From a virus, in the IMG/VR virus record IMGVR_UViG_3300049215_000235, positions 1 through 48,099 of that record: DNA of 48,099 nt. One strand, given 5' to 3'. The notes beneath the pieces were generated by a model. That model did not search any database. It was not told the DNA's origin and saw only the letters and a program-made list of their open reading frames with translations. This document shows positions 14,946 to 48,099 of this stretch, one piece after another. The first letter of the stretch is position 1. The number at the start of each line of letters is the position of its first letter. The position numbers and the translations under genes were made by a program.

Positions 14946-14966
14946 CGTCTCCGCGTAATCCGACGA

Positions 14967-15110
14967 ATGTCCCGGACATGCGAAAAAGGGCCTTTTTACC
15001 CATGGAGGAATGCGGGTTTGCGGGGTCTATTTTCGAGGGGTGAAGGTCTTACCCTTGGTGGCCAAAATCAGCGAATGTCGGGGCCTTAGAACGGCTCCTA
15101 GAGCGTCGGC
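14967..15110 (+). repeat. 140-bp dispersed repeat, copy 1
   Basis: It begins with palindrome ATGTCC-C-GGACAT, then AAAAAGG-G-CCTTTTT, then ACCCATGGAG, and ends CGGGGCCTTAGAACGGCTCC plus CTAGAGCGTCGG. Copies 2 (18956) and 3 (29120) are in the same orientation and mostly identical by eye. This copy fills the gap directly before the fibre gene. I see no gene in it. Confidence 0.9.
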
Positions 15111-18910: not shown

Positions 18911-18955
18911 CCAGACCTCGCGGTCGCAAACAGGCCCCACTACCGCTTTGCGCAA

Positions 18956-19098
18956 ATGTCCCGGACATGCAAAAAAGGCCCTTTTTACCCATGGAGAAAT
19001 GCGGGTTTGCGGGGCCTATTTTCGGGGGGTGCAGGTCTTACCCTTGGTGGCCAAAATCAGCGAAAGTCGGGGCCTTAAAACGGCTTACAGAGCTTCGC
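18956..19098 (+). repeat. 140-bp dispersed repeat, copy 2
   Basis: It starts ATGTCC-C-GGACAT, then AAAAAGG-C-CCTTTTT and ACCCATGGAG, and continues collinearly with copy 1. It lies just after the fibre stop, so copies 1 and 2 are direct repeats around that gene. Confidence 0.9.
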
Positions 19099-29119: not shown

Positions 29120-29262
29120 CTGTCTCGGACATGCGAAAAAGGCCCTTTTGACCCATGGAGAAATGCGGGCTAGAGGGGCCTATTTTTGAGGGGTGAAGGT
29201 CTTACCCTTAGGGGGCAAAATCAGCGAATGTCGGGGCCTTAAAACGGCTCCTAGAGCGTCGG
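29120..29262 (+). repeat. 140-bp dispersed repeat, copy 3
   Basis: Same orientation as copies 1 and 2 but within the leftward arm. The first palindrome is degraded (CTGTCTCGGACAT); the second is AAAAGG-C-CCTTTT. It spans the promoter region of the leftward gene starting at 29111. Confidence 0.85.
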
Positions 29263-29301
29263 CTTCCGGTAGGCGCTGCGGTAGGGTAGGTGGACCTGGC
29301 G

Positions 29302-30049: not shown

Positions 30050-30233
30050 GTCCGTACTCCGGGTGAACCGACACGATGTGCGCCCGCACGAGTGCGAGCT
30101 GGCCGCCGTGCGGCGTCTGCGTGGTGATGACGGGCGATCCGGTCTGCGCTTCCGCGAGGAAGTCGACGATCGTGGCGAAGTCCGCCCCGACCTGGATCCG
30201 GTCGCCGTTCAGCATGCGGACCTGGCAGCTCAT
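30030..30233 (-). CDS. Hypothetical small protein
   Basis: 67 residues, ATG overlapping the exonuclease stop (ATGA). Mostly short strands: MSCQVRMLNGDRIQVGADFA, VITTQTPHGGQLALVRAHIV. It may be a small beta-barrel (SH3 or OB-like) accessory of the exonuclease it is coupled to; inference. Confidence 0.6.
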   Translation of the reverse strand: MSCQVRMLNGDRIQVGADFATIVDFLAEAQTGSPVITTQTPHGGQLALVRAHIVSVHPEYGHGTTEH

Positions 30234-30868
30234 GCGTGGTACCCGCCCTTTCCGCTGGTGGTCGGCGTCCACAGCTTCATCACCGGGTTGAGCATGCCGC
30301 GGTTCAGCAGCTCCTCCCGCATCTCGATGTGCTGCGCGACGTCGCCGGTCACGCGCTTCTTCGTGAGGGCGATGCCCTCGGGTGTCAGCTTGTTGGCCTC
30401 ACGCCACTTGGCCTGGTCCATCTGCACCTTCGGGTGCTTCAGACCCAGCAGGGCGCCGAGGTTCTCCTGGCTCTTGGACAGACCGGAGAACCGCATGAGG
30501 TCGAGCTTGGTGTCCTGGGTCAGCTTCTTGCCCAGCGGCGGCAGCCCCAGCTCGAGGCAGGCGCCGTTGATGAGCGGAAGGTCGAACCCGCGGATGAAGT
30601 GGCCGGTCACCGCATCGGCCGCGTCGTACGCCCGAACGAACTCCTCGAGCATGTGCCCGAGGTCCTTCTCGCCCAGCGCCACCGCGCGGGGACGCTTCTG
30701 CGTCCCACGCTTCTGCGTCCCACGCTTCTGCGTCCCGATGAACTGCCACGCGATCGCCGTGATCTGCTTCGACACGAAGTCGCCGCCGTACCAGTGCAGC
30801 GGGCGGCACTCCACGTCGAAATCGAGGATCGCCAGCGGATCGCCGACGAACTCGATGTTCATGTTCAC
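30230..30868 (-). CDS. DEDD-family 3'-5' exonuclease
   Basis: 212 residues from GTG 30868 (ATG two codons later also possible). DnaQ/RNase H-like signatures: ExoI AILDFDVEC with the D-x-E pair, ExoII TGHFIRGFDLPLING with Asp, and a late HxxxxD-like segment RVTGDVAQHIEM with Asp. A 15-bp triplication (30692-30736) inserts three GTQKR units near residues 45-60. It may proofread or trim DNA ends, and could supplement the polymerase exonuclease. Confidence 0.75.
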   Translation of the reverse strand: MNMNIEFVGDPLAILDFDVECRPLHWYGGDFVSKQITAIAWQFIGTQKRGTQKRGTQKRPRAVALGEKDLGHMLEEFVRAYDAADAVTGHFIRGFDLPLINGACLELGLPPLGKKLTQDTKLDLMRFSGLSKSQENLGALLGLKHPKVQMDQAKWREANKLTPEGIALTKKRVTGDVAQHIEMREELLNRGMLNPVMKLWTPTTSGKGGYHA

Positions 30869-32274: not shown

Positions 32275-33597
32275 TCAGAAGACGAGGTTGGGCAGGGCGT
32301 CCGGCACGAGCGCCATGGTCCCGTCGTCGCGGTCGACGATCTGCACGCGGAGCTCCTGCCCGCGCTTCGAGCGCCGGGACTTCGTGAGCCGCATGAGGAA
32401 CTTCCCCGGCGTGACGGCACCCTGGTCGTAGACCTCGATCACCGTGTCCGCCGCGTTGAAGATGTCCGTCGAGCCGCGTGGGCCGTTGGCGCCCTTGTCG
32501 TGGTGGTGCAGCACGATCACGGCGCTGTTGGTCTCCCGTGCCAGCGGCTTGATCGCGTCGTTGAACAGCGGGGCGATCGCCCCAGCGTCCTTCTCCTCCT
32601 GCCCGTGCACCCGGGTCAGGGAGTCGATCACCGTGAGGGCCGGCTGGTAGTCCAGCCCCTCGTCGATGAGGGTGTCAGGGTCCTTGTCCAGCCGGATCCC
32701 CTGCTGCCAGAGGTACCGCAGCTGGCCGAGGTGCGCGGCCGGGTCCAGGCCCAGCCGCCGGAGGCGCGAGTGGATCACGTCGATCGGGTTCTCCTCGTCG
32801 ACGTACAGCACTCGCCCGCCCGCGTGAAGCGGGATGCCCAGCCACTCAGCCTCACCGTTGATGACGCTCGTGGACAGGTCCATGGTCAGCATCGACTTGC
32901 CGAGGCCGCCCAGGCCCGCCAGGATCACGACGTCGCCGCGGGCGATCCAGCCCTCCACCAGCCAGTTCACCTGGGGCGGCGGCTGGGTGAAGTCGATCGG
33001 CTTGTACCGGCTCGTGCCGACGCGCTCGGTGAGCGCCTTCAGCGACGCGGCGTCGTAGCCCGCCCCGAAGAACTCGCAGACGTCCTTGACGCCGTTCGGC
33101 AGGTGGATCCGCCTGGCCCGCCCGCCGAGATCGCCGCGGATCGTGCGCCACGCGGCGTCAACCTGCGGGGCCACCCGGTAGTCGGTGTCGTTGTCGAGGC
33201 AGACCCACACCCGGGCGTAGCGGGACAGCGTGGCCGCCGCCTCCGGGGTCCAGGTGTTGATCCCGCCCAGGCCGTACACCGGGTACGTGCCCTGCAGCTC
33301 CTGCCAGAGTCGCATCGTGTCGGTCTCGCCTTCGCACAGGAAGGCGGTGTCGCCGTCCGGCTGAACCGGAGGCTGGTACAGGGCGGGCACCCGGCCGGGT
33401 GCCCGGCCGGGCGTGAAGTAGAAGCGGCGCTTCTCCGGCGGCAGTTGCACCGTCGGATCGGGCCGCTCCTTCTCGCCGTTCGGGTAGGGCATCACCACGT
33501 TGTCGCCACGCACGAAGACGCCGAAGGCGTTCAGCGTGTCGCTCGAGATGCCGCGCTCCCGCGCGTACCAGTCGCAGATGGCCTGTGCGTCAGCCAT
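32275..33597 (-). CDS. Primase-helicase (Toprim plus RecA-like ATPase)
   Basis: 440 residues. Toprim motifs: FLCEGETDTMRL (Glu89) and WVCLDNDTDY (Asp135/Asp137). RecA-like domain: Walker A AGLGGLGKSM (227-236), Walker B LTVIDSLTR near 305, and VIVLHHHDKGANGPRGSTDI near 345-365 with sensor-type residues. No N-terminal zinc finger is present, so template recognition may need a partner or the primase part may be degenerate. The layout resembles phage T7 gp4-like proteins and RepA-like AAA_25 ATPases. It overlaps the HAD gene by eight bases. Confidence 0.85.
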   Translation of the reverse strand: MADAQAICDWYARERGISSDTLNAFGVFVRGDNVVMPYPNGEKERPDPTVQLPPEKRRFYFTPGRAPGRVPALYQPPVQPDGDTAFLCEGETDTMRLWQELQGTYPVYGLGGINTWTPEAAATLSRYARVWVCLDNDTDYRVAPQVDAAWRTIRGDLGGRARRIHLPNGVKDVCEFFGAGYDAASLKALTERVGTSRYKPIDFTQPPPQVNWLVEGWIARGDVVILAGLGGLGKSMLTMDLSTSVINGEAEWLGIPLHAGGRVLYVDEENPIDVIHSRLRRLGLDPAAHLGQLRYLWQQGIRLDKDPDTLIDEGLDYQPALTVIDSLTRVHGQEEKDAGAIAPLFNDAIKPLARETNSAVIVLHHHDKGANGPRGSTDIFNAADTVIEVYDQGAVTPGKFLMRLTKSRRSKRGQELRVQIVDRDDGTMALVPDALPNLVF

Positions 33598-34012
33598 GCA
33601 GTGTCTGGTCCTTGGCGTACTGCTTGTCGACCTTGATGAGCACCCGCGGCAGGATCCGCTTCCAGCTGCGCGGCCGCCCCGGGAAGTTCATCGCCTTGTC
33701 GTCGATCAGCAGGGTCCAGAAGGGCTTAACGCCGGTCCAGATGTCGACCGCCTGCAGGCCGGCCTCGTCGAGCTTGTCGCGGACCTCCTGGATCGCCAGC
33801 AGGACCTCGCCCGGCGGCTTCTCCTCCGGGCCGTTGCCCCTGTTGAAGTGCTGGTCGTACACCGGCGACAGGCGGGCCGAGTAGATGTAGCACTTGTGGC
33901 CCTGGCGCAGCATCTCGTGCACGGCCTCGACCGCGCCCGGCAGCCAGTCGCCCATGTCGGGCCACTTCGCCTCCACCAGCGTGCCGTCCCAGTCGAGAGC
34001 GATGACGGCCAT
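33590..34012 (-). CDS. HAD-family phosphatase
   Basis: 140 residues from the ATG overlapping the upstream stop. HAD motif I ALDWDGTLVE with nucleophile Asp and general-acid Asp, motif II YSARLSP, motif IV TLLIDDKAMNFPG. The short cap-free form fits nucleotide or polynucleotide 3'-phosphatases. With a phage ligase and Ku present, DNA-end clean-up is an attractive but unproven role. Confidence 0.8.
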   Translation of the reverse strand: MAVIALDWDGTLVEAKWPDMGDWLPGAVEAVHEMLRQGHKCYIYSARLSPVYDQHFNRGNGPEEKPPGEVLLAIQEVRDKLDEAGLQAVDIWTGVKPFWTLLIDDKAMNFPGRPRSWKRILPRVLIKVDKQYAKDQTLHG

Positions 34013-34347
34013 CAGCGGGCCAGCCTCTCCTGGACGTACTCCGCGCCGTTGATGTTGAACCACACGGCGGCGGCGTGGTCCTCGGTGCGGTCACCGTGAT
34101 ACCACTGCAGGAAGTGGCGCAGCGCCGACTCGCGGAACCGCTCCAGCTCCTCCTGGCCGTTGGCCTGCATCCAGTTGCGCTTCGAGTACTTCTTGGCGCC
34201 CTTGGTCAGATGGATCGCGTACCGCTCGAACATGGGGCCGTCGAGCGTCAGCGTGTAGTCGATCTTGTCGTCGGCGGTGTCGCGCACCATGCCCGACTCG
34301 AACTGGGCGCGGGCGCCCGAGTCCTTGATGGTGAACTCCTCGCTCAT
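34012..34347 (-). CDS. dATP/dGTP diphosphohydrolase-like (DUF5664)
   Basis: 111 residues. The pattern FESGMVRDTADDKIDY, FERYAIHLTKGAKKYSKRNW, SALRHFLQWYHGDRTEDHAA followed by AVWFNI is that of the small phage DUF5664 family annotated as dATP/dGTP diphosphohydrolase. It would adjust the nucleotide pool during replication. Related MazZ enzymes work with PurZ in 2-aminoadenine phages, but no PurZ is visible here. ATGA overlap with the polymerase fragment upstream. Confidence 0.7.
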   Translation of the reverse strand: MSEEFTIKDSGARAQFESGMVRDTADDKIDYTLTLDGPMFERYAIHLTKGAKKYSKRNWMQANGQEELERFRESALRHFLQWYHGDRTEDHAAAVWFNINGAEYVQERLAR

Positions 34348-34970
34348 GCGTACGGCTCCTTCTCCGCCCAGGTGGTGTACGACACCTCGCAGCTGGGCTT
34401 GATCGGCACCACCGAGTCGATCCGTTCGTCGGTCATCCACTCCGGCAGCAGCTGCGCAAGCTGCGGCAGCTCCTCGAGGGTGACGTCCAGCATCAACTCG
34501 TCGTGCACGGTGTTGACGATGTGCGACTGGTACGGCTGGAGACCGGCGTCCGTGCGGACCATGGCCCACTTCATCAGATCGGCCGCGCAGCCCTGACACA
34601 ACGCGTTGAGCGCGGAGTGCATGGAGCGCGGGTGAAGGTGCCGCCCGTACAGGGTTGTTATGTAACCCCGTTCGTTCACACGGGACTTGATGGCGTGTAT
34701 CAGCGTGCCGTGGGCGGCCTCGTTACGTTTCGATTCCCACCCAATCCCCGGCCATGTAGCGTGGTAGTTACGCAACAGTTCGAGGGCTTCCGGCCCTGTT
34801 ACACCAAGCTGTTTGATGAGTGTAGGTACGCCACCACCGTACACAATGCTGAAGTTCAGGCGTTTTCCGATCTGGCGATCGGTGTCAGTGATGACATCCC
34901 GGGGCTTGCCCAGCACGCCACACGCCGTCTCGATATGCAAGTCGGCGCCCTGCCTGAAGACCTCGGCCAT
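34344..34970 (-). CDS. DNA polymerase I, C-terminal part (motifs B and C)
   Basis: 208 residues from the first ATG. Family A fingers motif B is RQIGKRLNFSIVYGGGVP and palm motif C is NTVHDELMLDV. The coding similarity continues upstream of this ATG to about 35021 (IELKLLAFYLETINWPS), where it meets a 5-nt TAGGC interruption and the separate 31-codon ORF holding the catalytic motif A aspartate. Taken alone this piece lacks motif A and should be inactive. The stretch 34640-35160 has visibly lower G+C than its surroundings (50% at 34801-34860 versus 72% at 33001-33060, counted by hand). Either a pseudogene, a sequence error or an unusual decoding event. Confidence 0.75.
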   Translation of the reverse strand: MAEVFRQGADLHIETACGVLGKPRDVITDTDRQIGKRLNFSIVYGGGVPTLIKQLGVTGPEALELLRNYHATWPGIGWESKRNEAAHGTLIHAIKSRVNERGYITTLYGRHLHPRSMHSALNALCQGCAADLMKWAMVRTDAGLQPYQSHIVNTVHDELMLDVTLEELPQLAQLLPEWMTDERIDSVVPIKPSCEVSYTTWAEKEPYA

Positions 34971-35023
34971 GCTCGGCCAGTTGATCGTCTCCAGATAGAA
35001 CGCCAGTAGCTTCAGCTCGATGC

Positions 35024-35119
35024 CTAGTTGGGGTAGTCCGCAAACAGAAACGCATCGAGCTTCGGCACGAACGCTGCCTTCACAACCTTGTCACTCCTCG
35101 GTATGTTCTGGATGTTCAA
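35024..35119 (-). pseudogene. DNA polymerase I motif A fragment with own start
   Basis: TTG start preceded by AAAGGAGG (10-base spacing). It encodes MNIQNIPRSDKVVKAAFVPK then LDAFLFADYPN and stops at TAG. NIQNIP is the conserved segment after TGRxSS in family A polymerases and ADYPN is motif A. Deleting TAGGC (35022-35026) would continue it as ADYPN-IELKLLAFYL, exactly the family spacing. A -1 slip on the preceding CCCC would also reopen the frame but adds residues inside motif A. Confidence 0.7.
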
Positions 35120-35130
35120 ACTACCCCAAC
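35027..35130. repeat. 11-bp inverted repeat bracketing the motif A fragment
   Basis: GTTGGGGTAGT (35027-35037) and ACTACCCCAAC (35120-35130) are exact inverse copies, 82 bases apart. On the mRNA one arm lies between the ribosome site and the TTG start and the other covers ACUACCCCAAC directly before the UAG. Pairing could hide initiation or stall ribosomes. The arms could also be a template-switch scar or invertible-segment ends. Confidence 0.8.
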
Positions 35131-35161
35131 CTCCTTTCCATCGAACGTGTAATGAGGATTA

Positions 35162-35503
35162 TCAGTCTTGGTGTTCACGCATCCCCCTGTCCAACTCGTA
35201 CGCTTCGCGGATCGCCCGCAGGTGCGCCTCCTCCCAGCGCGGGTTTCCGCGCGTGTACCAGAAGACGTCCTTGCCCGGCAGGGCAACCAGATCGCGGAGA
35301 ACGTGCTGCAGCCCGCAGTCCGGACACACCCAGCTGAGCGACCACGCGCTCTCGTACAGGTGGTGGTCGACCGAGACGACGTGGCCGCGGTGGTGGTCGC
35401 AGTGGTCCTGCTTCGCCCACTGGGTCCGCAGACGGTCGTGGTACCAGAGCAGCAGTGCGTAGATGCAGGCCATGACGCCGAACGCTGCTGCGCCGGCGCT
35501 CAT
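35162..35503 (-). CDS. Small membrane-anchored protein inside polymerase locus
   Basis: 113 residues, ATG overlapping the upstream stop. One N-terminal membrane span (AAAFGVMACIYALLLWY), then a His/Cys-bearing domain (CDHHRGHVVSVDHHLY; SWVCPDCGLQHVLRDLVALP) with CxxC. No homing nuclease motif. It is one of two genes separating the two parts of DNA polymerase I. Confidence 0.65.
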   Translation of the reverse strand: MSAGAAAFGVMACIYALLLWYHDRLRTQWAKQDHCDHHRGHVVSVDHHLYESAWSLSWVCPDCGLQHVLRDLVALPGKDVFWYTRGNPRWEEAHLRAIREAYELDRGMREHQD

Positions 35504-35787
35504 CGCGGCAGCCCTCCGCCCTTCTTGAACGCCCGCACCGACTCGCGGTTGGGCAGGAGGATGTCGGGCTGCTCCTTGGTCTCGGCGGCCTGGCGGACGA
35601 TCTCCACCAGCGCGATCACCGACTTCATGACGTCGCTGTACGCCTCGGTCAGCTCAGCGATCTTGCGGTCAGCGTTCAGCCGCTGCTTCTCGAGCGCGAC
35701 GATGCGCTCGTGCAGGTAGCCGAACACCGGCGGGCTGTCTTCCCCGCCCGGCGTGATGTCGCGTCCGGCGACGTCGGGTTCGGACAT
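35500..35787 (-). CDS. Coiled-coil protein inside polymerase locus
   Basis: 95 residues, ATG after GGAGGAGGACGC, with a start-associated hairpin immediately upstream. Helical core LHERIVALEKQRLNADRKIA followed by ELTEAYSDVMKSVIALVEIV. Function unknown. Having its own control element argues that it is an independent gene inserted into the polymerase locus, not an intron ORF. Confidence 0.65.
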   Translation of the reverse strand: MSEPDVAGRDITPGGEDSPPVFGYLHERIVALEKQRLNADRKIAELTEAYSDVMKSVIALVEIVRQAAETKEQPDILLPNRESVRAFKKGGGLPR

Positions 35788-35797
35788 GCGTCCTCCT

Positions 35798-35841
35798 CCA
35801 TGGAGTCTCAGGTTTCAGAGAGTGGGTCGTGCGCCCTATGG
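35798..35841 (+). promoter_or_regulatory. Start-associated hairpin before gene at 35787
   Basis: CCATGGAGTCTCA / loop GGTTTCAGAGAGTGGG / GCGCCCTATGG. In the gene's sense the 3' arm CTCCATGG runs straight into GGAGGAGG, so folding could mask the ribosome site. It begins only 12 bases after the polymerase N-terminal stop. Confidence 0.75.
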
Positions 35842-35852
35842 GGCTTGCGCCC

Positions 35853-37016
35853 CTATGAGTCGCCGCGCTCCGACCCGGACGACGTGCGGCCGGTGACGGT
35901 GCCGTGCTGCCGAATCGACGGGTGGTACACGCCGTCGGCGCCGGTGTCGCGCTTCAGCCCCTCGAAGTAGGTCTCGAGGAGCTTCTTGTCGCTGCGGTAC
36001 TCGAGGAGCTTGGCCGCCAGCGGGTGCGGAATCTCCCGCAGCTGCTCGGCCTGGTACTGCTCACGCGGGTAGCCCGCTGCCGTGAAGTAGGCGGCGATCT
36101 CCGAGTTGCTCGCCGGGTTGAAGTACTGGTCGCGCTCCTTCGTCGGGATCTTGCCGGTGCGGACCTGCTTGCCGACGATCGCCTCGATGTCGCCCTCGTG
36201 CTTCAGCACCTTGGTGCGGTACTCGGCGATGCGGGCGTTCACGTAGTCGAGCCGGACGCCCAGTCCGGCCTTCTCCAGCGAGTAGAGCGCGGTGCGGGTC
36301 AGCAGCATCTCGCGCTCGTACAGCTCGGTCAGGTCGGGGAAGGCGAGGACTTGCGGGTGGAGTCGGCCTCCGAGGCGGAGCGTCCACTCGGCGTCCTTGA
36401 TGGCGTAAGGGACCACTGTGCCACGAGGCAGGAGGTGGTATCCGACGTCCGCAACAGAGTCCAGGCCATAGTGACGCTTGGCCCAGACCCGGGCCTGCTC
36501 GATCTCCCACTTCTCACGGGGGACCTCCTTCTCGTACTCGACGCCGCCCTTGGTGGCGGGCACCAGGATGGTGTCGCTCTCGCCCAGCACCGACACGGCC
36601 AGGTCCTTCAGGCCCTTCGGCTGGTGCTCATCGAGCAGGTGCGCCATTGCCTCGGTGTCGTGCAGCTGCTGCCACGGCTTCAGCTGCCAGCCCATCGTGA
36701 CCTCGAGCTTGTGCAGGTCGAACTTCACGTTGTGGCCGATCAGCACCTCGGCGCGGTCGAGGATGGTGGCGACCGCCTCACGACAGTCGATCCGGTCCAG
36801 CTCGAAGTAGTGCCCCGCCGCAATGCGGCCCTGGATCACGTCGTCCGACGCCCACGCGATCGTCACGCAGAAGGCGGTGTCGTAGTACTCCAGGCCGGTC
36901 GTCTCCGTGTCGAACGCCAGGACGGTTGGCTGGTCCATCTCCCACTGCCGCCAGCCCGTCTCGGCCAGCAACTGCAGGTCGGGGTCAGGCGGCGGCGTCC
37001 AGGCCGCCTTCGCCAT
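35853..37016 (-). CDS. polA: DNA polymerase I, N-terminal part (exonuclease)
   Basis: 387 residues. A complete DEDD 3'-5' exonuclease domain: VLAFDTETTG (Asp36/Glu38), LIGHNVKFDLH (Asn96/Asp100), and YAIKDAEWTLRLG near 210 with the late Tyr/Asp. Thumb region follows, with YREQYQ-type helices and ASNSEIAAYF (about 300). It ends HPSIRQHGTVTGRTSSGSER then GDS and stop. TGRxSS is the conserved start of the palm, so the frame is cut inside a core motif. The polymerase motifs resume 730 bases downstream after two other genes. Translation is coupled to the upstream 15-codon ORF through TGATG. Confidence 0.85.
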   Translation of the reverse strand: MAKAAWTPPPDPDLQLLAETGWRQWEMDQPTVLAFDTETTGLEYYDTAFCVTIAWASDDVIQGRIAAGHYFELDRIDCREAVATILDRAEVLIGHNVKFDLHKLEVTMGWQLKPWQQLHDTEAMAHLLDEHQPKGLKDLAVSVLGESDTILVPATKGGVEYEKEVPREKWEIEQARVWAKRHYGLDSVADVGYHLLPRGTVVPYAIKDAEWTLRLGGRLHPQVLAFPDLTELYEREMLLTRTALYSLEKAGLGVRLDYVNARIAEYRTKVLKHEGDIEAIVGKQVRTGKIPTKERDQYFNPASNSEIAAYFTAAGYPREQYQAEQLREIPHPLAAKLLEYRSDKKLLETYFEGLKRDTGADGVYHPSIRQHGTVTGRTSSGSERGDS

Positions 37017-37063
37017 CAGCGGCGGCCGTTGAGCGCGGCATTGTGGTCGACAGTGACGATCAC
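37016..37063 (-). CDS. Possible 15-codon coupling ORF between ERF and polymerase
   Basis: GTG overlaps the ERF stop (GTGA) and its own stop overlaps the polymerase start (TGATG). It encodes MIVTVDHNAALNGRR. Both junctions are ideal for ribosome re-initiation, so it may relay translation into the polymerase rather than make a useful peptide. Confidence 0.35.
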   Translation of the reverse strand: MIVTVDHNAALNGRR

Positions 37064-37563
37064 AGGTTCAGCCCTCCGCCGATCGCAGCGACCGCCGGAG
37101 CGACGTCAGACTGCTGACCGCCGATTGTCGCGCTGGAAACCTCGGGCCGGAACGCGGTCGTGCGGGTGGCCTCGGCGTCGTCGTCGGCATCGCCGACCAG
37201 CGACAGGAACGACAGGAGCGAGTAGCGCCGGGCGTACGTCACTGCGCTGCCCTGCGCCTGCGGGGCCACGCGATCGAGCGTCAGCACCGTGGTCTCGCTG
37301 ACCTCCGTGCCCGAGGCGACGTGTCGGAACGTGGTCGTCAGCGCGGGCTTGTCGCCGACCGACGACATCGGCTGCAGCACCAGGACGCCCAGCTCATGGA
37401 GCCGGCCGACCACGCGCTCGACGGTCTGGTTCAGGTCGACGTACTTGTTCTTGAAGTGCGGGTTCGTGGCCGACTTGACCAGCGTCGGCGGATCCTGCTG
37501 GAACACGAACAGCGCCTCGTGAATGTCGGCGGGCTGTGTTGCCGCTACCTTACGAGCAGCCAT
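37060..37563 (-). CDS. ERF-family single-strand annealing protein
   Basis: 167 residues, ATG after GGAGGCAGC. ERF superfamily features: IHEALFVFQQDPPTLVKSAT, NPHFKNKYVDLNQTVERVV, GVLVLQPMS, then SAVTYARRYSLLSFLSLVGD, the conserved aromatic/basic segment near the C-terminus. It anneals complementary single strands in phage recombination. The PD-(D/E)XK exonuclease gene two genes upstream would supply the resected ends. Confidence 0.85.
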   Translation of the reverse strand: MAARKVAATQPADIHEALFVFQQDPPTLVKSATNPHFKNKYVDLNQTVERVVGRLHELGVLVLQPMSSVGDKPALTTTFRHVASGTEVSETTVLTLDRVAPQAQGSAVTYARRYSLLSFLSLVGDADDDAEATRTTAFRPEVSSATIGGQQSDVAPAVAAIGGGLNL

Positions 37564-37601
37564 GCTGCCTCCTGTGGTCTTCGATGATGAGCGAGCCGTG
37601 T

Positions 37602-38342
37602 TTACGGTTTTTTGTAGCCGGTGGCCCCGGTCAGGATGGCCCCGTACAGGCTGGCCCCGAACAAGTCGGCCTCGGTCAGACGGGCCGCGTACAGGTTGGC
37701 CCCGCACAGGTCGGCCCCGCACAGGAAGGCCCCGTACAGGTCGGTCCTGGCCAGGTTGGCCCCAGACAAGTTGGCCCCGGACAGGCTGGCCGCGCACAGG
37801 TTGGCCCTGGCCAGGTTGGCCCCAGACAAGTCGGCCCCGGTCAGGCTGGCCCCGGACAGGCTGACCCCGCACAGGCTGGCCCCGGTCAAGTTGACCCTGG
37901 CCAGGTTGGCCCCGGACAAGTCGGTCCCGGACAGGCTGGCCCCGAACAGGTCGGTCCCGGACAGTTTCCCGGCGCGGGCCAACTTCGGGATGTCAAACAC
38001 ACACAATACGTCCGCCTGACCAACACGGACCTTGTGCTCGTCTGACCCAAACGTGCGTCCGTAGGACACCAACAGAACCGTGGACAGGCGGTGTCCTCCC
38101 TGACCCGCTCCATGTGCTGTCAGCGCCACACACAGGCCGTCTCCCTCAAAACTCGGACACGACCCACCCACCAGTGGCGTCTTAGGGCTTTTGGCCGTTT
38201 CTCCCGGGAAGGGCCAGACGTATCCACGGCTAGACTCAAAGTCAGCGTGGACGGCCTTGAGGCCGTACTTGTGCCCTCGTTTCTTGTTGGGCCTGCCAGC
38301 AAGTTCTACCAGCACGTCCAACAGCGGATTGTAGTTTAACAC
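37602..38342 (-). CDS. Pentapeptide-repeat protein
   Basis: 246 residues, GTG start after AAGGGACTGACCCA. Residues 1-125 are a distinct N-terminal domain (LLDVLVELAGRPNKKRGHKY; GHRLSTVLLVSYGRTFGSDE). Residues 126-240 are about 23 A(N/D)LxX-type pentapeptides (LSGANLARVNLTGASLCGVS), predicted to form a right-handed quadrilateral beta-helix. Proteins of this fold can mimic DNA, for example against gyrase; here that is only a possibility. At DNA level the array is very uniform (GACAGGCTGGCCCCG-like words), which suggests recent expansion. The N-terminal half has lower G+C. Confidence 0.85.
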   Translation of the reverse strand: MLNYNPLLDVLVELAGRPNKKRGHKYGLKAVHADFESSRGYVWPFPGETAKSPKTPLVGGSCPSFEGDGLCVALTAHGAGQGGHRLSTVLLVSYGRTFGSDEHKVRVGQADVLCVFDIPKLARAGKLSGTDLFGASLSGTDLSGANLARVNLTGASLCGVSLSGASLTGADLSGANLARANLCAASLSGANLSGANLARTDLYGAFLCGADLCGANLYAARLTEADLFGASLYGAILTGATGYKKP

Positions 38343-38372: not shown

Positions 38373-39338
38373 TCAGCTCCGCTTCTCGTCGATGGCCTTC
38401 GCCAGCGCGCGCCATTCTGACTCACTCGGCTCGGGGATGTCGGCCGGCTGCTCTTCGTCCTTGCGCGGGACGTAGACGGGCGTGCCGCCCTCGAGCGTCC
38501 AGTGGCCGAACTTGGTCACGCCCTGCTGGCGGCAGTTGCAGAGCTCGTCCGGGTACGGGCAGAACTCCGTCGACCAGTGCGGGACGTACGACACGTTGAT
38601 GACGGGTGTCTTGAGCTGCTTGTTCAGCGTCAGCTTGAGCACGCGCTCCTGCACCGGCGCCAGGCGGTCCGTCACGAACTCGTGCGGGTCGAGGTCCGCC
38701 GCCCGGGGGTCGTTCCACGTCACCGGCAGGCTGCGCAGGTACGCCTCGGTCAGCGCCCACCGCTCGGCCATCACGCCCTCGACCAGCTCCTGCGGCAGCG
38801 GCGTCCCCTCTTGGAACGTCGGCTGCACGAAGCCGTCCTTGGCGCGCAGCTGCTGCGTCGGCAGGTAGAGCACGCCGAAGCCCACCACCAGCGGGATGCC
38901 CATGCGGGCGGCCGCCCACCAGTACGCGGAGGCTTGCCAGAGGTGGTCCTCCTTCATGCCGTCGCGCAGTACGTAGGCGATGCCCTCGGGCTTGATGGTC
39001 TTGTAGTCGACCAGGACGAAGCCACGTCGCTCGGCGTTCCAGAAGAACGCGTCCGCCGTGCCCGTCCATCCGGTGGGCATCCAGGCGTCGAGCTTGACCT
39101 CGTTCATCACGGGTGCAGACCGGAACGCAGACTCGAGCCAGCGGTGGGTCAGCGTCCCGATCATCAGGCGCGTGTCTCCCACGACGTCGCTCTCGAGCGT
39201 CGGCGCTCCGGCAGCCCGAAGCTGTGAATGTCTCAGCGAACCGCGAAGGTCGCCGGAGGGGTGGAGCAGACCGTCGGGAGGCCTGCGGTCGGCTGCGAGC
39301 GAGGCTCGGAGCGCGCCGACGGGATCGAAGTCGAGCAT
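38373..39338 (-). CDS. PD-(D/E)XK exonuclease (RecB/Cas4-like)
   Basis: 321 residues from ATG 39338; no strong ribosome site, but the hairpin at 39344 lies directly before it. Nuclease motifs: GTLTHRWLE (His), WTGTADAFF (Asp), GFVLVDYKTIKPEG (D-Y-K) and LWQASAYWWAAARMG (QxxxY-like). C-terminal Cys residues (FCPYPDELCNCRQQG) could hold a metal or Fe-S site as in Cas4. It probably makes 3' tails for the ERF protein. Confidence 0.8.
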   Translation of the reverse strand: MLDFDPVGALRASLAADRRPPDGLLHPSGDLRGSLRHSQLRAAGAPTLESDVVGDTRLMIGTLTHRWLESAFRSAPVMNEVKLDAWMPTGWTGTADAFFWNAERRGFVLVDYKTIKPEGIAYVLRDGMKEDHLWQASAYWWAAARMGIPLVVGFGVLYLPTQQLRAKDGFVQPTFQEGTPLPQELVEGVMAERWALTEAYLRSLPVTWNDPRAADLDPHEFVTDRLAPVQERVLKLTLNKQLKTPVINVSYVPHWSTEFCPYPDELCNCRQQGVTKFGHWTLEGGTPVYVPRKDEEQPADIPEPSESEWRALAKAIDEKRS

Positions 39339-39343
39339 GCAGT

Positions 39344-39387
39344 CATGGAGGCGCAAGTTTCGGAGACCCGCCCTTTGCGCCTGCATG
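39344..39387 (+). promoter_or_regulatory. Start-associated hairpin before exonuclease gene
   Basis: CATGGAGGCGCAA pairs with TTGCGCCTGCATG (one mismatch) around loop GTTTCGGAGACCCGCCC. It ends five bases before the ATG at 39338. The rest of the 160-bp gap up to 39504 shows nothing recognisable. Confidence 0.75.
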
Positions 39388-39504
39388 TACCGAAAGGGTG
39401 CAGAAACGCCGAAAGCCGCCCAACCATGCGCCCTGCGAGGGTACATGGTCGAGCGGCTTCGAGGTTCAGAACGTCATCGTAGTGCCCAGATCACGACGCC
39501 AGCC

Positions 39505-41744: not shown

Positions 41745-41779
41745 GGGTCGCAGGTTTCCGAGACCGGGGCGTGCGACCC
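41745..41779 (+). promoter_or_regulatory. Start-associated hairpin before secreted-protein gene
   Basis: GGGTCGCA (41745-41752) pairs perfectly with TGCGACCC (41772-41779) around loop GGTTTCCGAGACCGGGGCG. The arms differ in sequence from other copies yet still pair. Confidence 0.75.
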
Positions 41780-41869: not shown

Positions 41870-41953
41870 CGAACGGTTAGATCAATGCGCCCGGAATCCG
41901 ACGAAACGCCACCCGTTGTGAGGACGGGCCGTCACCCGACGGAGGGATGCGCC

Positions 41954-42802
41954 ATGGCTCTCACCACGCCGACCCAAGAACTCATGATCTTCGATGCCTA
42001 CCTTACCCGCATGGAGCGACGTCGCCGCGAGGACGAGTCGATCCAGAACTACGCCTACCACGCCCGCCGGTTCACCGGCTGGTGCAGTAGCGCCGGCCTC
42101 GACCCGTGCCGTGTGACCACGGACGACCTCGAGGACTACTTCGCCGAGATGCTCGACGAGTATTCGCCAGGGACTATGCGCAACCACCTGAAGTCCCTTC
42201 GCTCCGCCTACCGATACGCTCAGCGGCGGGGAGTCGTGACCTCCGACCCGACGGTGGAGGTAGTGATTCCGCAGGAGGCGGACCGCGAGCCGGTCGTCAT
42301 CACCGAGCCAGAGCTTCGCGCCATCAAGGGCGCGTGTCGTGACTGGGACGACCTCGCTCTATTCGCGCTGCTGGCCTACGCGGGCCTGCGTCGCGTCGAG
42401 ATCCGCCGCCTACGCTGGGAACATCTCAACTTCAAGACCGCCACGCTCACCGTCGAGCGCGGCAAGATGAACAAGCTCCGGAAGGTGCCGATCCACCCGG
42501 AGCTTGCCACCATCCTACGAGACGGGCAGTTCAACCTGCTCGCCCCCGTCCTGCCCGGCCGGGCTGGCGGTCAGCTGTCGCAGGGTGCGATGCACTACCG
42601 CCTCCACCGGCTGGGCCGTCCGGCTCACGACTTCCGCCGCACGGTCGCCTCGAGTCTGTTCCGCAACGGTGTCCACACGGACACCATCGACAAGATCATG
42701 GGCTGGTCGCCGCGGGTAGTGCGTACCCGGTACTACCAGCACCACGCCGACGCCGACCTCCAGGCTGCCATCCTCCGGCTCTACGCCGACGATCCGGTGT
42801 AG
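41954..42802 (+). CDS. int: Tyrosine recombinase / integrase
   Basis: 282 residues from ATG 41954, which has GGAGGG nine bases upstream; an ATG at 41885 lacks one. N-terminal SAM-like core-binding domain (ESIQNYAYHARRFTGWCSSA; MRNHLKSLRSAYRYAQRRG). Catalytic domain has Arg146 in YAGLRRVEIRRL, a Lys in the beta-hairpin GKMNKLRKVPI, His225-x-x-Arg228 in AHDFRRT, Trp251 in IMGWSP and Tyr260/261 in RTRYYQH. No long arm-type N-terminal domain, so it resembles Xer-like recombinases. It indicates temperate lifestyle or dimer/plasmid resolution; no attachment core could be identified by eye. Confidence 0.9.
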   Translation: MALTTPTQELMIFDAYLTRMERRRREDESIQNYAYHARRFTGWCSSAGLDPCRVTTDDLEDYFAEMLDEYSPGTMRNHLKSLRSAYRYAQRRGVVTSDPTVEVVIPQEADREPVVITEPELRAIKGACRDWDDLALFALLAYAGLRRVEIRRLRWEHLNFKTATLTVERGKMNKLRKVPIHPELATILRDGQFNLLAPVLPGRAGGQLSQGAMHYRLHRLGRPAHDFRRTVASSLFRNGVHTDTIDKIMGWSPRVVRTRYYQHHADADLQAAILRLYADDPV

Positions 42803-42837: not shown

Positions 42838-42978
42838 TCACCGTGTCGGTCCGTACATCGTGTTCAGCCACTGCTTCTCCCTTCGCTCGATCCGTACGTG
42901 GCGTTGCACTACTCGTCGGTCGAGCCGTGGTAGCACCGCAACGGTGCCGTCTGCACCCACAGCCCAGCCCATGCTCAC
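42838..42978 (-). CDS. Hypothetical small protein after ligase
   Basis: 46 residues, GTG after AGGAGGCCACCGAA, so a very good ribosome site. Starts MSMGWAVGADGTVAVLPRLD; basic C-terminus (RHVRIERREKQWLNTMYG). It is the last gene of the Ku-ligase operon and converges with the integrase. Function unknown. Confidence 0.6.
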   Translation of the reverse strand: MSMGWAVGADGTVAVLPRLDRRVVQRHVRIERREKQWLNTMYGPTR

Positions 42979-43006
42979 TTCGGTGGCCTCCTAGACCGTC
43001 GTCGAG

Positions 43007-43876
43007 TTACGCCAGGCACTCATCTGGCGTCTTGTCTGTCCGCACCCGCTTGAACTGCGGGTGCCTGTAGCTGCCGCTGGCGAGCTTGCCCATGTGAGCG
43101 ATCTCGATGACCGTGCCCACCAGCTTGCCCTCCGCGTGGAGGGCGGTGAAGCGTTCGCGCTCGGCGTCCGTCATGCCGGAGCAGCGGCCGACCTCGACCA
43201 GCTGCCCGTCCGGTCCGACCAGCCCGAAGGTCAGCGCACCCAGGAGGCCTGCGTACTTGCCCTGCCCTGCCGTGGTGCCGGTGACGATCACGTCCACCGT
43301 GTCGACCGCCTTGATCTTGACCCAGCCCTTGCCGCGCTGGCCGCTGGCGTACTTGGCGCGGGGATCCTTGACGATCGCGCCCTCCCAGCCAGCCTCGATC
43401 AGCGCCTGCACCGCCTCGGCGGAGTAGGGCACCTGCGGGGTGAGCTGCACCGCGTCGCTGGCGCACGCTGCGACCACCGCCTCGGCCAGCCCCCGCCGCC
43501 AGATGAGTCCTTGGTCGCGGACATCGTACCCGCCAAGCTCGAGGACGTCGAACACCACGTAGGTCAGATCGTTCGTGACCTTGCTCGAGCTGCCCAGTAC
43601 TGTCTGCACAGCCGACCAGTCGTTTCCCTCTGTAGTCAGCTTGCAGATTTCGCCGTCCACCACCGTGTTCGGCGGCAGGATGCGGAGGGCGTCCTCGATG
43701 TTCGGGCAGTGTCCGCTCTTGTCGGCGCCCGTCCGCGCATAGAGTCTCACGTTTCCGAGACCATCAACGTGAGCCAGAATGCGGTGCCCGTCGTACTTCG
43801 GCTCCATGAGCGCGCCCGGGATCAGATCCGGGTCGCCAGACTTTGCAAGTTGCGGAGTTTTACTGGTAATCTTCAT
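43007..43876 (-). CDS. lig: ATP-dependent DNA ligase
   Basis: 289 residues, ATG after GGAGGGCTAC. Nucleotidyltransferase motifs: I EPKYDGHR with adenylated Lys27, Ia near LYARTG, III YVVFDVLELGG, IV WEGAIVKDP, V WVKIKAV; the OB-fold follows (VDVIVTGTTAGQGKYAGLLG; GTVIEIAHMG). It is the minimal core as in the ligase domain of LigD, without primase or phosphoesterase domains. It lies directly downstream of a Ku gene. Together they would join double-strand ends, probably genome ends or breaks. Confidence 0.9.
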   Translation of the reverse strand: MKITSKTPQLAKSGDPDLIPGALMEPKYDGHRILAHVDGLGNVRLYARTGADKSGHCPNIEDALRILPPNTVVDGEICKLTTEGNDWSAVQTVLGSSSKVTNDLTYVVFDVLELGGYDVRDQGLIWRRGLAEAVVAACASDAVQLTPQVPYSAEAVQALIEAGWEGAIVKDPRAKYASGQRGKGWVKIKAVDTVDVIVTGTTAGQGKYAGLLGALTFGLVGPDGQLVEVGRCSGMTDAERERFTALHAEGKLVGTVIEIAHMGKLASGSYRHPQFKRVRTDKTPDECLA

Positions 43877-43896
43877 GTAGCCCTCCATAGGGGTGA

Positions 43897-43942
43897 GCAA
43901 AGGGTCGGGGGTTTCCGTCGCAGGTTTCCACCGGCCCTTTGC
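43897..43942 (+). promoter_or_regulatory. Start-associated hairpin before ligase gene
   Basis: GCAAAGGG (43897-43904) pairs with CCCTTTGC (43935-43942). The loop holds a duplicated GGTTTCC word. It ends about 20 bases before the ligase start, with CCTATGGAGG between. Confidence 0.65.
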
Positions 43943-43945
43943 GGT

Positions 43946-44803
43946 TTATTTACGCGCCTTCACCTTCTTCGGTGCGGCCTTCGGTGCGGCCGCCAGCGAT
44001 GCGGTCAGGGCCGCCATCAGGTCGGACGCCGGCGTCTCGGTCGGTGTGACCTCGGCCACCGTGACCGCGCCCTTCTCGCCCTTCTCGGCGATCGCGGCCT
44101 CCATGGCCTCGCCATACTCGTCCTTGACCTCGCTCCATGCGAAGTCGTCCGGGATGGCATCGAACAGCTGCGCCGCCATCGCACTCAGTTCGGCGCTGGG
44201 CTTGGGCATCTGCGCCACCGCCGTGCTGACGGTCTCCACGTTGCCCCACCGCACCTGGGCGTGGTAGGCCAGCGTCTGCGCCACCAGGCAGCCGTACACA
44301 TCGCTCCACCGGATGGCGAACACCTTGGTGGTGCCGCGCTCGGTGACCCGTCCGATGAAGACTCGTCCGTCGTTGCCCGCGCGGTCGCGCAGGTACTCGC
44401 AGACCAGCAGGTATGCCTCGTCCTGCGTCTTGTCCTCGGGCCATGCCAGGTGAGTGCTCTGCACCCACTCGCTTGGAACCTCGGACTCGTGCAGGTTCGC
44501 CACCAGCTCGATTGTGTCCGTGCCTTCGAGCTTCGGGCACTCCGACTCGTCCAGCGTCACGAAGCCGTCACCGTAGGCGTAGGCCGTGTGGAGCTGGGCG
44601 CGCTCGTAGATCGTGCCGTCCTCCGTGCGGTAGACCTGCTTCACCCGCTCATCGTTCGGGCCAAGCAGCGTACCGCTGACTCGGGTCGACGCATCCAACG
44701 CCGGACCCATGGCGATCCCGACCGACACCAGGCCGAAGCGGAGTGTCCGCTTGCCCGACGTCGCCCGGAGCGCCACCGACTTAGGCGTGACCGCCTTCGC
44801 CAT
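43946..44803 (-). CDS. ku: Ku protein (non-homologous end joining)
   Basis: 285 residues, ATG after GGAGGTGCAAC. Bacterial Ku core features: LRFGLVSVGIAMGPALDAS at the N-terminus, RTEDGTIYERAQLHTAYAYG then DGFVTLDESECPKLEGTDTI, and the bridge region RVFIGRVTERGTTKVFAIRW then VYGCLVAQTLAYHAQVRW. The C-terminal tail is Ala/Pro/Lys-rich (APKAAPKKVKARK), as in Ku proteins that bind DNA with a basic tail. Forms a dimeric ring on duplex ends and recruits ligase; the ligase gene is immediately downstream. Confidence 0.85.
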   Translation of the reverse strand: MAKAVTPKSVALRATSGKRTLRFGLVSVGIAMGPALDASTRVSGTLLGPNDERVKQVYRTEDGTIYERAQLHTAYAYGDGFVTLDESECPKLEGTDTIELVANLHESEVPSEWVQSTHLAWPEDKTQDEAYLLVCEYLRDRAGNDGRVFIGRVTERGTTKVFAIRWSDVYGCLVAQTLAYHAQVRWGNVETVSTAVAQMPKPSAELSAMAAQLFDAIPDDFAWSEVKDEYGEAMEAAIAEKGEKGAVTVAEVTPTETPASDLMAALTASLAAAPKAAPKKVKARK

Positions 44804-44820: not shown

Positions 44821-44853
44821 GTGTCGCAGGTTTCCGGTAGTGGGTGTGTGAGC
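44821..44853 (+). promoter_or_regulatory. Start-associated hairpin (weak) before Ku gene
   Basis: TCGCAGGTTTCCGGTAGTGG carries the loop signature but the arms pair poorly. It lies 18 bases before the Ku ATG. Confidence 0.5.
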
Positions 44854-47964: not shown

Positions 47965-47997
47965 GTCGCAGGTTTCCGAACGTGGCGCGTGCGCCAC
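47965..47997 (+). promoter_or_regulatory. Start-associated hairpin at right edge
   Basis: GTCGCA / loop GGTTTCCGAACGTGGCG / TGCGCCAC, with an internal GTGGCGC-GT-GCGCCAC alternative stem. It runs directly into the 20-bp tandem array. Confidence 0.65.
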
Positions 47998-48099
47998 TAG
48001 TACGGGGCTACCGCCACTAGTACGGGGCTACCGCCACTAGTACGGGGCTACCGCCCCTAGTACGGGGCTACCGCCCCTAGTACGGGGCTACCGCCCCTA
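47993..48099. repeat. 20-bp tandem array at right end
   Basis: Five full copies and a partial copy of GCCACTAGTACGGGGCTACC; from the fourth copy the unit reads GCCCCTAG instead of GCCACTAG. Unrelated in sequence to the left-end array. The window stops inside it. Confidence 0.95.

Follow-up and report, generated by a model that had tools for sequence, protein, structure and literature searches.

The ku-lig Locus and Its Genomic Surroundings

The stretch of DNA analyzed here, hereafter the window, is the IMG/VR record IMGVR_UViG_3300049215_000235 (48,099 bases). Its two genes of interest, ku and lig, are co-oriented and separated by a 69-base gap in the same leftward operon, and a codon-usage gene caller selects each of them independently (Table 1). 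According to this caller, the right part of the window consists mostly of leftward replication and early genes, and ku-lig sits inside the leftward early operon together with replication-type ATPase genes. The left part is filled by a rightward virion block coding for terminase, a P22-like portal and a major head protein, as well as for lysis enzymes (NlpC/P60 and GH25). The nearest relatives by virion genes are actinobacterial podoviruses of 45–47 kb such as Arthrobacter phage Jasmine, whose major head protein is 31% identical to that of the window, a kinship that points to a host that is probably an actinobacterium. Likewise, the presence of a tyrosine integrase suggests that the phage is probably temperate.

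Table 1. Position, strand and description of the features discussed in the text.
Feature	Position	Strand	Description
Short tandem repeats	1–108; 47992–48099		16-base CACAATCGTTGACATC and a 20-base unit, at both contig ends
Looser GGAAACCTGCGAC copies	14909; 35805; 47373		
143-base repeat family	14966–15108; 18955–19097; 29121–29264		intergenic, beside gene starts, 87–92% identical
RNase-H-like frame	30230–30868		no family match
HAD gene	33590–34012		weak family matches
DNA polymerase A, split	34344–37016	-	exonuclease and first part 35853–37016; C-terminal part 34344–34970
ERF-type single-strand annealing protein	37060–37872	-	homology-based alternative for joining ends
Pentapeptide-repeat protein	37602–38342		coded by 30-base-period repeats; long spurious frames on opposite strand
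PD-(D/E)XK nuclease	38373–39446	-	weak match; possible ERF partner
Leader motif GGAAACCTGCGAC	41747–41759	-	exact copy upstream of leftward gene
Tyrosine integrase	41885–42802	+	convergent with ku-lig operon
46-aa frame, possible small gene	42838–42978	-	downstream of lig; good ribosome site
lig	43007–43876	-	289-aa minimal ATP-dependent DNA ligase; GGAGG ribosome site before ATG
Leader motif GGAAACCTGCGAC	43917–43929	-	exact copy between ku and lig
ku	43946–44803	-	285-aa Ku: core beta-barrel, minimal C-terminal motif, basic tail
Leader motif GGAAACCTGCGAC	44823–44835	-	exact copy, 19 bases upstream of ku start codon
Leader motif GGAAACCTGCGAC	47965–47977	-	exact copy upstream of leftward gene

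A 13-base leader motif, GGAAACCTGCGAC, precedes both genes. The window holds four exact copies and, allowing up to two mismatches, nine copies against 1.4 expected (maximum of 4 in 100 shuffles); its role could be that of a promoter or of an element for translation. Besides Ku and a ligase, the preliminary description had included a 46-residue protein: the adjacency and coordinates of the two enzymes were right, whereas the 46-aa frame was not picked by the codon-usage gene caller and has no relatives in the related loci retrieved.

Two neighboring enzymes, a HAD phosphatase and a DEDD exonuclease, had also been put forward as able to clean DNA ends, but the family-matched DEDD domain is the proofreading exonuclease domain of the split DNA polymerase A. 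No evidence was found for end cleaning by such a pair, nor for the small insertion scars elsewhere that, on the preliminary view, the module might explain. The two parts of DNA polymerase A are separated by about 0.9 kb with two small frames, in which an Rfam search found no intron.

Terminal or inverted repeats were sought at both contig ends and none was found, so that the genome ends are not readable from the contig. Since both ends run into tandem repeats, the assembly may stop at these repeats and not at genome ends.

A Divergent Ku and a Minimal Ligase

The product of ku had been described as a recognizable bacterial-type Ku, and both sequence profiles and predicted fold bear this out. 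It matches PF02735 with 50.8 bits (E 2.4e-13), above the curated cut-off of 25, the PHROG Ku-like family with 57 bits, and NCBIfam Ku_bact with 104 bits (E 8e-30) over the full length of the profile (6–259 of 259); it also matches solved prokaryotic Ku by sequence, and stays below the cut-off of the bacterial Ku equivalog TIGR02772 (104 vs. 150 bits). The AlphaFold model of the monomer is of middling confidence (pLDDT 75.7), and its best PDB matches by Foldseek are the Ku of M. tuberculosis (9ig8; E 3.8e-13, probability 1.00, TM about 0.5) and of B. subtilis (9vnq). Residues 261–269 form the C-terminal motif DLMAALTAS, conserved in all phage Ku aligned, and the last 16 residues make up a basic tail with six K/R and no D/E. 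In bacteria, the C-terminal motif mediates contact to the host LigD (PMC5124664).

In a tree of 23 Ku, where PDB 9i91 serves as an M. tuberculosis reference, the window Ku pairs with that of a tailed phage (L050/G033; support 100/100) on a long branch apart from mycobacteriophage and M. tuberculosis Ku; from this placement it is read as a divergent Ku, not recently copied from a host gene. The Ku of L050 is also the closest by identity (36%) and belongs to a record without ATP ligase, while known mycobacteriophage-type Ku are about 20–25% identical. As a sole query, the window Ku retrieved no relative from IMG/VR or GTDB genomes, nor by tblastn among annotated phages; viral relatives surfaced only with the M. 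tuberculosis Ku as query and with mixed alignments.

The ligase had been called minimal with motifs I–V, a description that holds and extends to motif VI: a nucleotidyltransferase domain followed by a short OB domain carries the complete set of catalytic motifs (I KYDGHR27, Ia, III DGE74, IIIa, IV EGAIVK165, V WVKIK185, VI RTDK279). Domain matches are PF01068 with 82.7 bits and the OB domain PF14743 with 39.5 bits, and the PHROG ATP ligase family is matched with 200 bits. The AlphaFold model (pLDDT 86.5) matches archaeal, LigD, Lig1 and LigE ligases. Within NCBIfam the protein scores highest against the NHEJ ligase domain (NHEJ_ligase_lig), with 135 bits under a cut-off of 227.75; with this score and its stand-alone 289 aa, lig falls outside the LigD/LigC type of NHEJ ligase, and no polymerase or nuclease module of LigD type was recognized either attached to it or in its neighborhood. 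Its nearest relatives, 37–39% identical, are ligases on viral contigs, and in the ligase tree, the backbone of which is weakly supported, it stands among viral ligases and apart from the LigC/LigD-like set. No Ku was found in the records of the first-found relatives (L002–L005, L022). L022, whose ligase also counts among the nearest relatives, was assigned to the MAG of an Asgard archaeon; this contig has a phage-like ligase besides amidase and primase genes and is probably viral.

Recurrence of Ku-Ligase Pairs in Other Viruses

The known Ku phages that were checked lack an ATP ligase, and other viral Ku were therefore searched for ligase partners. Two IMG/VR scans gave 27 and 21 other Ku-bearing records, i.e., 48 with some near-duplicates, and a PF01068 ligase was present in nine of them; in the remaining 39 no ATP ligase was seen, and the NAD-dependent ligases sought in Ku-bearing viral records were likewise not found. 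Ku and ligase genes lie within about 6 kb of each other in eight of the nine ligase-bearing records and 53 kb apart in the ninth. With the window excluded, this closeness has a Fisher combined p of 5.5e-5, a value that assumes uniform gene placement, takes record length into account and is overstated as far as phage DNA-metabolism genes cluster anyway; one record, G047, is too short to inform on closeness.

Linked pairs occur in at least seven records besides the window, and the GC content of these differs widely. The two genes overlap by 4 bases in G042 (33% GC), where they lie near an integrase, and by 1 base in G036 (40% GC), a provirus, taken from an IMG record of an isolate genome, that carries terminase, portal, capsid and tape-measure genes and has ku-lig near its contig end; in G025 the order is ku, two small genes, lig. 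The check for virion genes covered G021, G025, G036 and G042: G021 has clear virion genes and has two more early genes in common with the window, and in G025 and G042 the sampled genes included integrase and replication genes but none for virion proteins. Those partner ligases that were placed in the tree are not monophyletic, for which reason the pairing in viruses probably arose repeatedly and independently. In G030 (L063, 16304–17104), the ligase next to Ku is short, at 267 aa, and a good part of the middle and OB sequence normally present is missing from it; this may be a reduced or inactive enzyme.

A Candidate Two-Component End-Joining Module

A Ku and a ligase that are genuine, adjacent and recurrent as pairs in unrelated viruses are best read as a dedicated phage end-joining module, in line with the preliminary description, and it appears fairly probable that ku-lig is a phage-encoded two-component non-homologous end-joining (NHEJ) system. 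In the window, both proteins are intact and their adjacent, co-oriented genes have the leader motif in common. Ku, a homodimer by homology, would thread onto double-stranded DNA ends, shielding and bridging them, and the minimal ATP ligase from the same leftward operon would seal the bridged strands. End joining would then run without the host LigD, and the module would keep phage DNA intact at the ends that stem from entry, from nuclease or restriction cuts and from broken replication forks. That Ku and ligase cooperate in end joining is, on the genomic evidence, likely. Given such cooperation, general repair of phage ends comes close to an even chance as its purpose, circularization of injected DNA is doubtful, and a benefit to the lysogen still more so; repair of broken phage DNA in general is at least as good a fit as circularization. 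It is plausible that the phage is self-sufficient for sealing, with the reservations that no LigD-type polymerase or nuclease domain is present and that Ku has kept its C-terminal motif. Independence from LigD and the moment at which the module would be used are, like the cooperation of the two proteins, inferred.

Several observations pull the other way. Adjacency in a single genome could be coincidence, and many phages carry a lone ATP ligase for replication; clustering of DNA-metabolism genes alone would also yield proximity. Moreover, lig groups with viral ligases and not with LigC/LigD (weak backbone support), most of the other Ku-bearing records, including that of the nearest Ku, show no ATP ligase, and the LigD-contact motif of Ku could mean recruitment of the host enzyme.

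Among the alternatives, a role in circularization as in Omega and Corndog, put forward in the preliminary description, with Ku holding the ends of the injected linear genome while the phage ligase or the host LigD seals them, is unlikely. It draws on the 4-base 3′ ends of known Ku phages, for which circularization by NHEJ was proposed (PMC3706429 and PMC4351075, with Pitcher et al., 2006, cited in these), and on the integrase of the window phage, which therefore needs a circle. However, the contig has no terminal repeats, Jasmine, the closest isolated relative, has a direct terminal repeat of 1330 bp (PMC5513430), and the ERF protein and PD-(D/E)XK nuclease offer a homology-based route.

Quite unlikely, too, is a Ku that acts alone or with host LigD, LigC or LigA, mainly shielding ends like Mu Gam, next to an ordinary replication ligase that is its neighbor by chance. 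The 39 records with Ku and no ATP ligase speak for it, as do the retained C-terminal motif and basic tail for LigD contact (PMC5124664) and the citation of Mu Gam as a promoter of NHEJ with host ligase (PMC8136500); it sits poorly, however, with linked pairs in at least seven further records of diverse GC content, two of them with overlapping genes. The least probable of the three is lysogeny cargo (a moron) expressed from the prophage and giving the host extra break repair. In its favor, ku-lig adjoins the integrase in the window, has an integrase nearby in G042 and lies near the contig end in provirus G036, and Rhizobium phage PPF1 (L074, 2324–4748) has a LigD-like ligase immediately next to its attP and integrase; against it, ku-lig in the window belongs to the leftward early operon instead of being isolated cargo with its own terminator, and its leader motif is common to other genes of the leftward strand.

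Returning to the two-component module, a wider claim can be made only tentatively: self-sufficient, LigD-independent viral end joining could be a recurring kind, in which diverse tailed phages repeatedly paired Ku with any minimal ATP ligase, here a viral-lineage ligase outside LigC/LigD that Ku would recruit directly.

To our knowledge, phage Ku has so far been viewed as borrowing the host LigD. The present data suggest that some phages supply their own means of joining DNA ends rather than use that of the host. A phage bringing both Ku and ligase could join ends in hosts without NHEJ, which would bear on phage circularization, on the survival of restriction or nuclease cuts and on mosaicism by illegitimate recombination. 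As tools for end joining, compact Ku-ligase pairs could be of use as well. The question is directly testable in an isolate, because G036 is a provirus in an isolate-genome record.

Comparison with Known End-Joining Systems

Ku with a ligase is standard in bacteria, where the usual partner of Ku is LigD. As in these bacterial systems, Ku and an ATP-dependent ligase are encoded together in the window, but the window ligase is minimal and stand-alone, without the polymerase and phosphoesterase domains of LigD. Similar in layout are Streptomyces pairs, either on plasmids as a two-gene ku-ligase operon (NZ_CP108847 and NZ_CP108736; L077, 1509–3430, and L080) or chromosomal (kuC with a ligase-only LigD), in which ku is likewise followed, at a distance of no more than about 20 bases, by a stand-alone ligase. 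Their ligases differ from lig in being LigC/LigD-like with a long OB region, and their carriers are bacteria and plasmids, with no tailed phage among them. In Streptomyces, the ligase-only ligC and ligD take part with ku in damage repair (PMC5124664), and in mycobacteria LigC is a backup for LigD (PMC1378119).

On the phage side, the Rhizobium/Sinorhizobium phages PPF1 and phiLM21 are temperate, as the window phage probably is, and carry NHEJ-type (LigD-like) ligases, but these belong to another clade and no Ku gene occurs in the stretches shown. Mu Gam resembles the window Ku in being a Ku-like phage protein that binds DNA ends and promotes their joining; it is a distant Ku relative and, as cited in PMC8136500, needs a host ligase. 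One survey lists 11 phages with Ku (PMC8136500), and 82 Ku-bearing phage records were found here by search. The mycobacteriophage Ku of clusters J and O (Omega, Wanda, Corndog, Ryadel) share with the window Ku a core of about 285 aa and a C-terminal motif, but a PF01068 ligase was found in none of six phage records with Ku that were examined (five mycobacteriophages and one fecal contig). The window, having lig, thus departs from the Omega/Corndog type, i.e., Ku without a phage ATP-dependent DNA ligase. No description of a phage operon combining Ku with a ligase outside LigC/LigD was found in a limited literature search, so this absence is not firm. Phage Ku and bacterial or plasmid ku-ligase pairs being already known, it is the phage ku-lig operon that would be new here.
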